Shown here one piece after another: positions 26,859 through 30,993 of a stretch of 64,000 nt of DNA (position 1 is its first letter; each line of letters starts with the position of its first letter). The notes under the pieces were generated by a model. That model saw nothing but the letters and a program-made list of their open reading frames with translations, ran no database searches and was not told where the DNA came from. Where the stretch lies: NCBI GenBank assembly GCA_016792805.1, contig JAEUHX010000034.1, positions 124,001-188,000 of the forward strand, read 5' to 3'. A program made the translations under genes and the position numbers. The stretch is from Planctomycetota bacterium. GTDB taxonomy: Bacteria; Planctomycetota; UBA1135; JACQFD01.

Positions 26859-28568
26859 TTACTTCGAGTCCGAAGGTCGCGACGCGGGGCGCAGCCGAGC
26901 TGCATCGGCGCACCCGTCTTTGTCGCCGAGCTTACAGGCCGCTTTGTAATAGGCGCGAGCCTTCGAGGCGTCCTGCGCGCGCCCCTTGCCGAACTCGTAC
27001 GCGCGACCCACGAGGCGGTAGATCACGGGGTCGGCCCCCTTGGCGCATTGGGTTTCGAGATGGTCGAGCGCGAAGAGAACGGCCTTGGCCGGCTTCGCTC
27101 CCTCGACGGCGAGGAATTGTGTAACGAGATTCGCCGAGCCCGCGAGGCTCCCGAGCTTGCTCGCGCGGGCGAAGCACTTCGCCGCCATCGTCGGATCCTT
27201 CGGCACGAGCTCACCTCGAAGGTAAAGCCCGCCCATTTCATTCCAGGCATCGGTCGAATCGGCTCGTGTGTGAGCTTTCAACACTTCGACCAGTCCCTTG
27301 CCGGCGTTGGGCCTACCTTCGGCGAGTGCCTTTCGCCAAAACTCAAGCGTCCGGCCTTCGTGCTGCGCCCCCACATATCCCGATCCAAGCATCACCAAGA
27401 ACAGCGCTGCCCAGGCGGTCATGTGTACGAGATTCCACCGGCGGGGCGTCAGTGCGGATGCCTTCTGCGCGGCGCGCTCGAGCCAACCGACCGACGCGAT
27501 CCGATCGATCCAGCGAACACACAGATTCAACAGCGGAATCGGGAGCAGCTTGTCGTAGACCGTGAGCGAACCAGCCTGAGTGAGGATGCCGTAGGCCACG
27601 AACACGGCGCAGCCGTACAGAAATCCGAAGATTGTCTTGCCGACGTTCGTTCGCGGCGACGTGGCCGGGTCGGTGACCAGGAGGTGAAATCCCAGGAAGA
27701 CGGGCGCAGGAATGTTGGAGAAGACAAAGTAGTAGGTTCCCGAGTGCCATTTGTAGATGAGGCTCAGGAGCGCCAGTGTCGCTGCCGCCGTGAGCGTCAT
27801 CAGCGTCACCGAGAAGAAGTACTGAACGATCAGCCCGAGGAGGAAGACCTGCAGGTAGATGTGCTCGGGCTTCGAGAACGTGTCCGCGATTCGGCCGGCC
27901 CAGGTGTACTCCGTCGTGCCGGTTGCGATGAGAATCACCGAAACGATCGCCAGCGCGAAGGCGGATGGATTGAAAATGTGCGAACGGCGGCCGTCTCGCT
28001 CCCATCGCACGAACTCCTTTCCGAACGCTGCCAGCGCGATCATGGCGAACTGGAAGGCGAACCAATCATCCTTGAACCACAGAAACACGTTGGTGCTGAG
28101 GATGATGGGGATCGGCCCGCAGCCAAGGCGCCACGCGCGGCCCCGCGACCAGGCGATGAGCGCCTCCAGCGCGTAGAGAAAGACGAGCTGAGAGAGGATC
28201 AGCGGGATCTCGGTGAAGACGTCGGTCCAGTAGGTGCCCCAGTAGCCATAGATGCAGAGCTGAACTCCACCCTGAATGTAATGTGACTTGAGCGGCGCAA
28301 CGAGTTCCAGGTCATAGGTTCGCCCCGAGCGCAGGCCCGTGGCGAAGAGTGCTGCGGCCCAAATGAGCAGCGCACCGGCCGATCCGAAGAAGGCGTACAG
28401 AAGATTCGGGTTCTGGTGGACGCGCGGAAGCAGCGTTGTCGCCAGCAGCAGGCCAATAAATCCGAGCGCCGCAAGCGGCAGACGCGATCGATTCGGCGCG
28501 GCGCAAGCCGATGCCTTCCACTGCTCGGTCTCGGTGGGCGCCGTCGGGATTGTTGGTTGTGCGTGCAT
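26859..28568 (-). CDS. NqrB/RnfD-like membrane protein fused to Sel1-like repeats
   Basis: A 569-residue protein. Residues 30-400 form about ten membrane helices with features of the NqrB/RnfD family, in which the related subunits carry covalent FMN: HIFNPSAFALAIVSV and LLVTDPATSPRTNVGKTIFG. The last 150 residues are soluble Sel1/TPR-like helical repeats (DAWNEMGGLYLRGE, CFARASKLGSLAG and YKAACKLGDKDGC). The usual FMN-threonine motif S-G-A-T was not recognised. None of the other nqr or rnf genes is present, so this is a stand-alone relative. I start it at ATG 28568; open sequence upstream looks non-coding. The gene could couple membrane redox cofactors to an unknown partner bound by the repeats. 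Confidence 0.75.
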   Translation of the reverse strand: MHAQPTIPTAPTETEQWKASACAAPNRSRLPLAALGFIGLLLATTLLPRVHQNPNLLYAFFGSAGALLIWAAALFATGLRSGRTYDLELVAPLKSHYIQGGVQLCIYGYWGTYWTDVFTEIPLILSQLVFLYALEALIAWSRGRAWRLGCGPIPIILSTNVFLWFKDDWFAFQFAMIALAAFGKEFVRWERDGRRSHIFNPSAFALAIVSVILIATGTTEYTWAGRIADTFSKPEHIYLQVFLLGLIVQYFFSVTLMTLTAAATLALLSLIYKWHSGTYYFVFSNIPAPVFLGFHLLVTDPATSPRTNVGKTIFGFLYGCAVFVAYGILTQAGSLTVYDKLLPIPLLNLCVRWIDRIASVGWLERAAQKASALTPRRWNLVHMTAWAALFLVMLGSGYVGAQHEGRTLEFWRKALAEGRPNAGKGLVEVLKAHTRADSTDAWNEMGGLYLRGELVPKDPTMAAKCFARASKLGSLAGSANLVTQFLAVEGAKPAKAVLFALDHLETQCAKGADPVIYRLVGRAYEFGKGRAQDASKARAYYKAACKLGDKDGCADAARLRPASRPSDSK

Positions 28569-28985
28569 GGAGGATCGCTTCAATGGGCTCTCTCGCGTCG
28601 AATCGAGTCTGTAGCGCCGAGAGCGGATTACGTTCGTTTTCTGGCAAACAAAGCTATTCCGATACGCCCAGCCGTCCACCCGAGCTGTGGCGCGCTCGGA
28701 GCGAGCCCCTCCGTTGCAAACATTCGCTCTACGGTGGGCGCGTAAGAATTCGCGCGTGCCGCGGCGCACCCCCTTGGCGAGAGAGGCGCAGGAGCCGCGC
28801 CTCGTAGGATCTACGCGCAGGATCTGCGGGGGGGCCATCGGCGGATCGAATCGGAGCGCAGTCAATCCCATCGGCTCGGCTACAGTTCATTGCGATGCCG
28901 CGTATCTGTGGCTCGGCCGGTGGCAACGTGGTCGCCGGTCCAGGTCGGATCCACGACGGCAGGTTCTCCGTCCCCACTGCTCGAC
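28569..28985. other. intergenic region between divergent genes
   Basis: This 417-bp stretch separates the divergent NqrB-like and NQ-repeat genes and must hold their promoters. I see no convincing gene. It contains two touching 13-bp palindromes at 28803-28815 and 28816-28828 and the imperfect inverted repeat GCGCGTAAGAATTCGCGC near 28738. An open frame from TTG 28890 could extend the NQ-repeat protein but does not look coding. Confidence 0.5.
28803..28828. repeat. two touching 13-bp palindromes with GAT centres
   Basis: CGTAGGATCTACG and CGCAGGATCTGCG lie end to end. They differ by one base per arm, and the change is complementary, so both keep a 5-bp stem around GAT. This could be an operator for a dimeric protein; no partner is identified. 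Confidence 0.45.
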
Positions 28986-29237
28986 ATGGCTGAAGATCGC
29001 GTCGTGAAGAACCAGCAGAAGATTCTGGGCAATCAGGCCCGGATCATTGCAAATCAGGGCTCCATCAAGTCGAACCAGAAGACGATCCTTGATAATCAGA
29101 AGACGATCAAGGCGAACCAGAAGTTGATTCTCCAGAACCAGGGCAAGCTCAATGCGATTCTTGCCAACCAGGGCAAGCTCGACGCGATTCTTGCCAATCA
29201 AGGCAAGATTCTCGCTGCCCTCGGCAAGCTGAAGTAA
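28986..29237 (+). CDS. small NQ-heptad coiled-coil protein
   Basis: An 83-residue protein made almost wholly of a repeating seven-residue unit beginning Asn-Gln: NQQKILG, NQARIIA, NQGSIKS, NQKTILD, NQKTIKA, NQKLILQ, followed by two ten-residue variants (NQGKLNAILA and NQGKLDAILA). Hydrophobic Ile/Leu recur at heptad spacing with Asn and Lys between, which predicts a long parallel coiled coil with polar core positions. No signal peptide or membrane segment is seen. The ATG at 28986 precedes the repeats directly. Its function is unknown. It lies 56 bp upstream of the predicted selenoprotein gene on the same strand and may share its transcript. Confidence 0.75.
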   Translation: MAEDRVVKNQQKILGNQARIIANQGSIKSNQKTILDNQKTIKANQKLILQNQGKLNAILANQGKLDAILANQGKILAALGKLK

Positions 29238-29293
29238 GCTTTGCCTCGCGGGCGCAGCGGCGAGGTTTGGCCGCGCGCCCGCGGTCTCGTTTT

Positions 29294-29929
29294 ATGAAGA
29301 TCCTGAAGATCGTCGGCTGCCTTGTGGGGCTCGCCGTGCTTGCGGCGGGTGGGTACATCGTTTGGATGATCGGTCCCCGGAACATCATTGGGATGCTCCG
29401 GTACGACACGCGACGCGAGGGCGAACTAAAAGTGGGAGACGCTGCGCCGGACGTTCCGCTGCTCTCGCTCGACGGCGCCGAGGAGAGGCTCGCTGGCCGG
29501 ATCGGCGACGTTCCCACAGTTCTTATCTTCGGCAGCTTCACCTGACCGCCGTTCCGGCGCTCGGTCGAGCGCCTCGAGAAAATCGCCGCCGCTCACGCGG
29601 AGCGCGCAAGATTCTTGACCATCTATATTCGCGAGGCGCATCCGACGGATGAGTGGCAGATGACGGTGAACGAGAAGGAGGACGTCTGCTACCCCCAGCC
29701 GCGGACGACGGACGAGCGCGTCTCGATCGCGAAAGACTTCGTCCGCAGGTTCCACTATTCGATCCCGATGCTCGTCGACCCGATCGAGAATCCCGCCGAT
29801 CGGATCTACGCGGGGTGGCCTGAGCGGATCTATATCATCGGTGCGGACCGCAGCATCCTCTTCAAGGGTGAAATGGGGCCCTTTGGCTTCGATCTCGACG
29901 GCCTCGAGGCGTGGTTCGCAGCTCGCTAG
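29294..29929 (+). CDS. iodothyronine-deiodinase-like selenoprotein, in-frame TGA read as selenocysteine
   Basis: A 211-residue product if TGA 29543-29545 is read as Sec84. There is an N-terminal membrane helix (about 6-24), then a thioredoxin-fold domain of the iodothyronine deiodinase family. The active site reads FGSFT-Sec-PPF, the same pattern as F-G-S-x-T-U-P-P/S-F in animal deiodinases. Downstream, in the same frame, are IYIREAHPTDEW, matching the deiodinase I-Y-I-x-E-A-H-x-S/T-D-x-W block, and PERIYII with ILFKGEMGPFGF, matching P-E-R-L-Y-I-I and the K-G-x-x-G-P block. Similarity on both sides of the TGA rules out two separate genes. A SECIS-like hairpin follows. The physiological role is unknown: reductive dehalogenation or peroxide/thiol chemistry are possible. 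Automated annotation would split it into two short ORFs. Confidence 0.85.
29543..29573 (+). promoter_or_regulatory. selenocysteine codon and candidate bacterial SECIS hairpin
   Basis: After the TGA at 29543-29545 and a 10-nt spacer, a perfect 7-bp stem GGCGCTC (29556-29562) / GAGCGCC (29567-29573) closes the loop GGTC. The loop begins 17 nt after the TGA, within the range seen for bacterial SECIS elements, and starts with G residues as SelB-binding loops usually do. Confidence 0.7.
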
Positions 29930-29978: not shown

Positions 29979-30110
29979 GAAGTCGTCCGAGCTGCGGCCA
30001 TGGACTTCTCGCGGTCCCATCGTCGGACGGCCCCGCCGTAACTTCTTGTTACGTCTACGGCAATCCTTCTCGATCTCGCGCAAGATCCGCGCGCTCGCAG
30101 TGCGCAGCAC
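29979..30110 (-). repeat. dispersed repeat family 1 (copy G)
   Basis: A nearly full-length core of family 1 on the minus strand: GCGAGCGCGCGGATCTTG, CGCGAGATCGAGAAGGA, GCCGTAGACGTAAC, AAGTTACGGCG and CGCAGCTCGGACGAC in order. The central stem is CGTAAC/GTTACG (+ strand 30037-30042 and 30048-30053), a compensated version of CGTAGC/GCTACG in the copy at 32.6 kb. It lies between convergent genes and supplies the end of the EamA reading frame. Confidence 0.75.
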
Positions 30111-30993
30111 CGGTGCGAGCACCTGGAGCGATCTTGCCAGGGGCAGCGAACCTCGCGGCAAGCCAGGTGCCGAGCAGGATCGTCGCGCCGCCGGCCAGCA
30201 TCGTGGGGTGCAGCGGCTCGCCGCGGAAAATTGCACTCCAGAGCACGCCAAAGGCAGGAATCAGATAAGTGACCGTGATAGCGCGCGAAGGCCCGATATT
30301 CTTGATGAGCCGAAAGTACAGAACATAAGCGAGCCCCGTGCAAACGATTCCGAGTGCGACGGCGGCAGCCCAAGCGGCGGAGCTCGGGACGGCAGCCGGC
30401 GGCATGACAGCGGCAAGAGGCAAGAGAAGCATGGCGGCGGCGATCTGGCTTCCGCCGGCGATCACGATGGGGTTCACACCCGCCAGCCTTCGTCGCGTGT
30501 AGTGCGTTGAGACTCCGTAGCAGAGCGCAGCCAGGAGGCCGGCGCCGATCGCTACACGATCTCCCGCGACGCCGAGCTTCTCCCACACGAGAAGTACAAC
30601 TCCTCCGAAGCCCAACAAAAGCCCGGCGACGCGCGCGATCGGCCAGCGTTCCCCAAGAAAGACCATGGAGATGAGGCCGGCGAAGAGCGGCGCCGTCGCA
30701 TTGAGCACCGAAGAGTAGCCGGCAGGCAGGCTTAGCGTCGCAAAGGCGAAGAGAGAGAACGGAATCGCGGAATTGAGGGCTCCGAGAAAAAGTAACTTCT
30801 TTGGATAGGCGGCCGCCTCGCGCAGCGCTCCCCGAGATGACAGGATCGCCCCGAGGAAGGCCGCGGCGATGAGCACGCGCACTGCAATGAGCGGAACAGG
30901 CCCGAACTCGGGACTCGCCGTCTTCATGAGCGGGAACGATCCGCCCCAGATGGCGCCCAGCAGCAGAAACTCTGTGATGTCGGAGCGGCGCAT
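30055..30993 (-). CDS. EamA/DMT-family transporter
   Basis: A 312-residue inner-membrane protein with ten predicted helices in two EamA halves (about 5-140 and 150-285), each rich in Gly/Ala/Pro and with typical motifs such as APLFAGLISMVFLGER and the second-half block IGPSRAITVTYLIPAFGVLWSAIFRGE. Family members export amino acids, metabolites or nucleotides. It follows the Lrp/AsnC-type regulator by 7 bp on the same strand, a common arrangement in which the regulator controls an amino-acid exporter. The last 18 or so residues (GAAHCERADLARDREGLP) are encoded by the family-1 repeat, so the original C-terminus was probably replaced when the repeat arose. Confidence 0.88.
   Translation of the reverse strand: MRRSDITEFLLLGAIWGGSFPLMKTASPEFGPVPLIAVRVLIAAAFLGAILSSRGALREAAAYPKKLLFLGALNSAIPFSLFAFATLSLPAGYSSVLNATAPLFAGLISMVFLGERWPIARVAGLLLGFGGVVLLVWEKLGVAGDRVAIGAGLLAALCYGVSTHYTRRRLAGVNPIVIAGGSQIAAAMLLLPLAAVMPPAAVPSSAAWAAAVALGIVCTGLAYVLYFRLIKNIGPSRAITVTYLIPAFGVLWSAIFRGEPLHPTMLAGGATILLGTWLAARFAAPGKIAPGARTGAAHCERADLARDREGLP

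Follow-up and report, generated by a model that had tools for sequence, protein, structure and literature searches.

A predicted membrane-anchored, deiodinase-like selenoprotein in a Planctomycetota genome and the second cysteine of its bacterial family

Introduction

Bacterial deiodinase-like proteins, in selenocysteine (Sec)- and cysteine-containing forms, were first reported in 2005 from the Sargasso Sea by Zhang et al. (PMC1088965), who proposed a redox role on the ground that bacteria would not be expected to have thyroid hormones. Such proteins have also been counted in GOS (PMC2398784) and are listed in reviews, the roles of families of this kind being largely unknown; our literature search, made mostly outside subscription journals, returned no paper on the function of the bacterial proteins. 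For the animal enzymes, a proton relay has been proposed in Dio2 that consists of Ser127, Thr129, Tyr157, Glu160 and His162 with a further His182, and re-reduction has been proposed to proceed via a peroxiredoxin-like selenenyl-sulfide cascade (PMC11592359).

Here we describe a gene of this family in the window, by which we mean the whole 64,000-nucleotide stretch of Planctomycetota DNA that was analysed. The gene is a well-supported addition to the family described in 2005 and not its first case. It shares with the published bacterial deiodinase-like selenoproteins (PMC1088965; PMC2398784; PMC13188914) the PF00837 domain, Sec at the catalytic column, a SECIS element of the bacterial type and the occurrence of Cys forms. 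It differs from them in coming from a named phylum with its own genome and Sec machinery, in carrying the motif UPPF, where one review lists UxxC, and in belonging to a clade with a cysteine at position 132, a comparison in which the published metagenome sequences were considered by description only. With animal Dio1-Dio3 the predicted product has in common the fold, the position of Sec, an N-terminal membrane anchor and the Ser, Thr, Tyr, Glu, His and Trp residues of the active site, whereas its second relay His is replaced by Pro and its substrate-clamp Arg/Lys by Met, and its putative SECIS is of the bacterial type, inside the coding region.

Results

A deiodinase-like reading frame with one in-frame TGA

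The preliminary description had claimed that one frame, broken by a single TGA at the Sec column of animal deiodinases, encodes a membrane-anchored protein that automatic annotation would split in two, and each of these points was borne out, the anchor as a predicted helix. Between the ATG at 29294 and the terminal TAG at 29927-29929, the TGA at 29543-29545 is the only in-frame stop, and translation table 11 yields two separate ORFs, 29267-29545 and 29615-29929. The read-through product matches the Pfam family T4_deiodinase (PF00837) with 104 bits (E=1e-29; curated cut-off 27) and, by phmmer, mouse Dio3 (4tr3) with E = 6e-21 and Dio2 with E = 3e-17. The TGA column reads FGSFT-U-PPF in the window and FGSCT-C-PPF or FGSAT-C-PPF in the Sec-to-Cys Dio crystal constructs. 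The features of the locus are collected in Table 1.

Table 1. Positions of the gene, its predicted functional elements and the adjoining small gene in the window.
Feature	Position	Strand	Evidence or remark
Small NQ-repeat protein, 83 aa, NQxxIxx repeats, directly upstream of the Sec gene	28986..29237	+	possible partner
Deiodinase-like Sec gene, 211 aa, with its TGA read as Sec (U84)	29294..29929	+	frame, Pfam, phmmer, homologue alignment
Membrane anchor at the N-terminus, helix predicted for residues 2-26	29297..29371	+	AlphaFold2 secondary structure, hydrophobic sequence
UGA read as Sec84, catalytic Sec column of animal deiodinases	29543..29545	+	alignment to Dio structures and homologues
SECIS-like hairpin GGCGCTC-GGTC-GAGCGCC, 7-bp stem, GGTC loop	29556..29573	+	stem-loop geometry, family comparison
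Y111, E114, H116, deiodinase proton-relay network	29624..29641	+	62/62 bacterial sequences
Cys132, putative resolving cysteine	29687..29689	+	sole second Cys at either alternating site; clade support 100/99

An AlphaFold2 model of the product, built from an alignment of 33 natural sequences, has a pLDDT of 94 and a pTM of 0.86. Its nearest solved folds are Dio3 and Dio2, with TM scores of 0.70-0.72 by query length and ~30% identity, followed by thiol-disulfide oxidoreductases (DsbE, ResA and TlpA-type) and peroxiredoxins. The deiodinase domain is also recognised by NCBIfam NF038285 (E = 5e-52), but the long N-terminal part of that model is missing from the window protein, which covers model positions 177-337 of 347 only and, at 177.5 bits, falls short of the cut-off of 250. 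On these predictions the gene product belongs to the bacterial deiodinase-like family as a selenoprotein with a thioredoxin fold and a membrane anchor, and its catalytic domain probably faces the periplasm since the N-terminus is basic, the one feature on which this orientation is based.

The membrane anchor, the probably periplasmic domain and the fold matches that rank directly after the deiodinases would also suit an envelope thiol-disulfide oxidoreductase of the TlpA/ResA kind, which targets protein disulfides and not small molecules. However, the protein contains neither CxxC nor UxxC, UPPF being found instead, its second cysteine is distant in sequence, and its sequence is much nearer to deiodinases than to thioredoxins; we regard such an activity as very unlikely. 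Peroxiredoxins have the thioredoxin fold and one attacking chalcogen with a distant resolving cysteine, an arrangement that the window protein would share, whereas its scores against the Pfam families AhpC-TSA and Redoxin (PF00578/PF08534) are 17.2 and 17.4 bits, below the cut-offs of 26 and 26.6.

Selenocysteine machinery and conservation of the TGA

A search of the host genome (5.74 Mb, 91% complete) for selA, selB, selC and selD, which the preliminary description had put forward as a check, found all four, with tRNA-Sec, SelA, SelB and SelD each above curated cut-offs. The tRNA-Sec scores 72 bits (cut-off 47) and is called by ARAGORN as tRNA-SeC with anticodon tca, and it lies with selA and selD on a single contig within about 6 kb. 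Sec-type SelD proteins carry an in-frame TGA, and the host SelD (G000:C29:206048-206968, L056) has one of its own, U11 in ACAGU, which makes it a selenoprotein candidate.

At the Sec column, TGA is present in all 38 relatives recovered from genome contigs, most of which belong to Planctomycetota, Myxococcota and Acidobacteriota, and SelB is present in 19 of the 21 genomes tested among them. Three of the 38 are RefSeq Polyangium isolates (L019-L021), and a sequencing error confined to the window is thereby excluded. Alignment, by which the TGA position was checked solely for sequences extracted as loci, gave 59 loci with TGA and three with TGC, so that the column, where U or C had been anticipated, holds TGA throughout except for TGC in one nested clade. 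These three Cys forms group together inside the TGA forms with a support of 100/97 and, judged from the tree, are a natural Sec-to-Cys exchange; two of their genomes, 99-100% complete, are without SelB and one has it, among the matches listed. Across Planctomycetota, again among the matches listed, SelB occurs in 87 of 96 genomes with the TGA form compared with 148 of 296 others (p = 1e-13, kinship ignored), and its absence from the nine remaining TGA-form genomes is possibly due to incomplete assembly.

Two further observations concern individual genomes. The copy of the acidobacterium gp2 AA101 (L054) has a stop 58 codons past the TGA where its relatives read on, and would be a frameshifted or decayed copy. 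Three to five PF00837 genes per genome, nearly all of them TGA-bearing, are found in G058, G146, G005 and G158 among the matches listed, which suggests expansion of the family in these genomes.

A SECIS-like hairpin after the TGA

The loop of the hairpin in Table 1 begins 17 nt after the TGA, the geometry of bacterial SECIS elements. In comparison with synonymous recodings the window hairpin reached p = 0.11, and 0.056 under a narrower stem-loop geometry that was picked after the first result; neither value is significant alone, as the window hairpin barely beats its recodings because the gene is GC-rich. Minimum free energy was rejected as a SECIS test since it discriminates poorly in GC-rich genes (mean z -0.86 after the TGA; window z 0.02), and stem-loop geometry against synonymous recodings was therefore used. 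Over 24 representatives of less than 65% identity, the stem after the TGA is stronger than in synonymous recodings with a Fisher p of 2.4e-15. Under the same scoring rule, no stem signal was found at control offsets of -25, +20, +40 and +60 codons in the same 24 representatives, or at the corresponding position in the three TGC forms. The earlier proposal of a SECIS directly downstream of the TGA thus stands as regards the perfect 7-bp stem and the family-wide signal, but the evidence from this sequence alone is weak.

The hairpin codons are near-frozen at the synonymous level in the clade of the window gene, across three phyla, with an excess codon identity of 0.35, compared with 0.00 outside the hairpin (p = 0.00015 by permutation). 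In one relative (L023) the hairpin carries a compensating synonymous pair, CGC/GAG to CGT/GAA, and the one exception within the same family is L064, with a stem mismatch.

If the TGA were a true stop or a sequencing error, the downstream part would be a pseudogene remnant, as the two separate ORFs under table 11 could be taken to indicate. This explanation is effectively refuted: the TGA is common to all close homologues in three phyla, whether they come from isolates or from assembled genomes, the protein sequence is conserved past it, the SECIS codons are frozen, the hairpin is family-wide and the Sec machinery is present in the genome. The UGA is almost certainly decoded as Sec, through SelB and tRNA-Sec together with the hairpin that directly follows it.

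Active-site residues

Residues S81, T83, Y111, E114 and H116 of the product are the counterparts of Dio2 residues 127, 129, 157, 160 and 162. T83 is kept, like the three residues of Table 1, in every one of the aligned bacterial sequences and S81 in 59 of them, where the 62 sequences counted are those with a recognisable FGSxT[U/C] motif, a filter that excluded L076, L079 and L083; the loop Trp of the deiodinase active site is conserved in the bacterial alignment as well. The second relay His (Dio2 His182) is absent, its place being taken by Pro136 in the window protein and by Pro in 59 of the 62 bacterial sequences, and the substrate-clamp Arg/Lys (Dio3 Arg275, Dio2 Lys241) is absent from the window product, which has Met194 instead. 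With the relay kept and these two positions changed, it looks as though the selenium chemistry has been retained without the recognition of thyroid hormone.

The same residues bear on a reductive dehalogenase, our second choice, in which Sec84 would use the chemistry of the animal deiodinases to release iodide, bromide or chloride, the substrate being a naturally occurring halogenated aromatic or phenol and not thyroxine. In its favour are a fold and a Sec motif nearest to those of Dio3 and Dio2 and the conservation of the five relay residues (Ser, Thr, Tyr, Glu, His) together with the loop Trp. Against it stand the loss of the second relay His and of the clamp and a neighbourhood in which no gene was recognisable as one for dehalogenation; the conserved residues could also serve other selenium chemistry. 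We therefore consider dehalogenation unlikely.

A second cysteine at one of two sites

Each of the 62 sequences has one further cysteine, either near C132 (37 sequences, the window protein included) or near position 149 (25 sequences); none has both and none has neither. As far as we found, this alternating pattern is new, and a requirement for a second cysteine appears to be general in the bacterial members. The C132-type sequences form a single clade in the tree and span Planctomycetota, Myxococcota and Acidobacteriota, so the swap between the two sites may have been a single evolutionary event.

Genomic neighbourhood

The small NQ-repeat protein, which has no match in Pfam or NCBIfam, is encoded directly upstream of the Sec gene in the window and in two further Planctomycetota loci (L017 and L018), and divergently adjacent to it in an acidobacterial locus (L037). 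Its gene is rare (3 of 294 Planctomycetota genomes and 6 of 347 genomes of the phylum of L037), and several copies (further loci L092 and L094-L098) occur without an adjoining deiodinase gene. From its position it is a possible partner of the Sec protein. One could also suppose that the C132 clade is a distinct envelope dehalogenase of natural halogenated aromatics, with the halogen-competent residues kept, the resolving cysteine moved and the NQ-repeat protein added in some lineages, a proposal that we hold to be quite improbable.

The other neighbours in the window are genes for a 2-hydroxyacid dehydrogenase, an RnfD/NqrB-like membrane protein with Sel1 repeats, an EamA transporter and an Lrp regulator. 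They were rejected as a guide to function, as they are not conserved beside other copies; the neighbours in Acidobacteria (inorganic pyrophosphatase, phosphatase and others, named by eye) were likewise set aside since they look like ordinary synteny. Inspection by eye had hinted at an RnfD-like gene next to other copies of the NQ-repeat protein, but a Pfam search did not bear this out. The membrane protein in the window (26859-28730, minus strand) has weak similarity to NQR2/RnfD/RnfE fused to the Sel1 repeats. The final 31 codons of the EamA-like ORF (window about 30055-30150, minus strand) match, at 71%, DNA beside selA and selD on another contig (L055/L056), which may reflect a repeat dispersed in the genome or an ORF called too long at its end.

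Discussion

We favour, with a probability of about 0.6, a periplasm-facing Sec thiol-redox enzyme with a peroxiredoxin-like cycle that is resolved by Cys132. In such a cycle the Sec84 selenolate, held in the network of S81, T83, Y111, E114 and H116 at the outer face of the inner membrane, would attack an oxidant or electrophile, Cys132 would resolve the selenenyl species to a selenenyl-sulfide, and a thioredoxin-type donor would re-reduce the latter and close the cycle. The role proposed for C132 in resolving oxidised Sec84 is based on the peroxiredoxin-like cascade that has been proposed for the animal deiodinases. Our first choice is chemistry on peroxides or oxidised thiols; the substrate, put forward tentatively and at a little under even odds, would be a peroxide or another oxidised small molecule.

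The ever-present second cysteine points to a common Sec-Cys mechanism in the bacterial family. This family is common in Planctomycetota, where PF00837 was found in 118 of the 392 genomes sampled, mostly in the TGA form (among the matches listed), and annotation that takes TGA as a stop would thus truncate or split many of its genes. The locus provides a Sec protein that is anchored in a genome and has relatives in cultured Polyangium, and the role of the bacterial 'deiodinases' is thereby open to testing.
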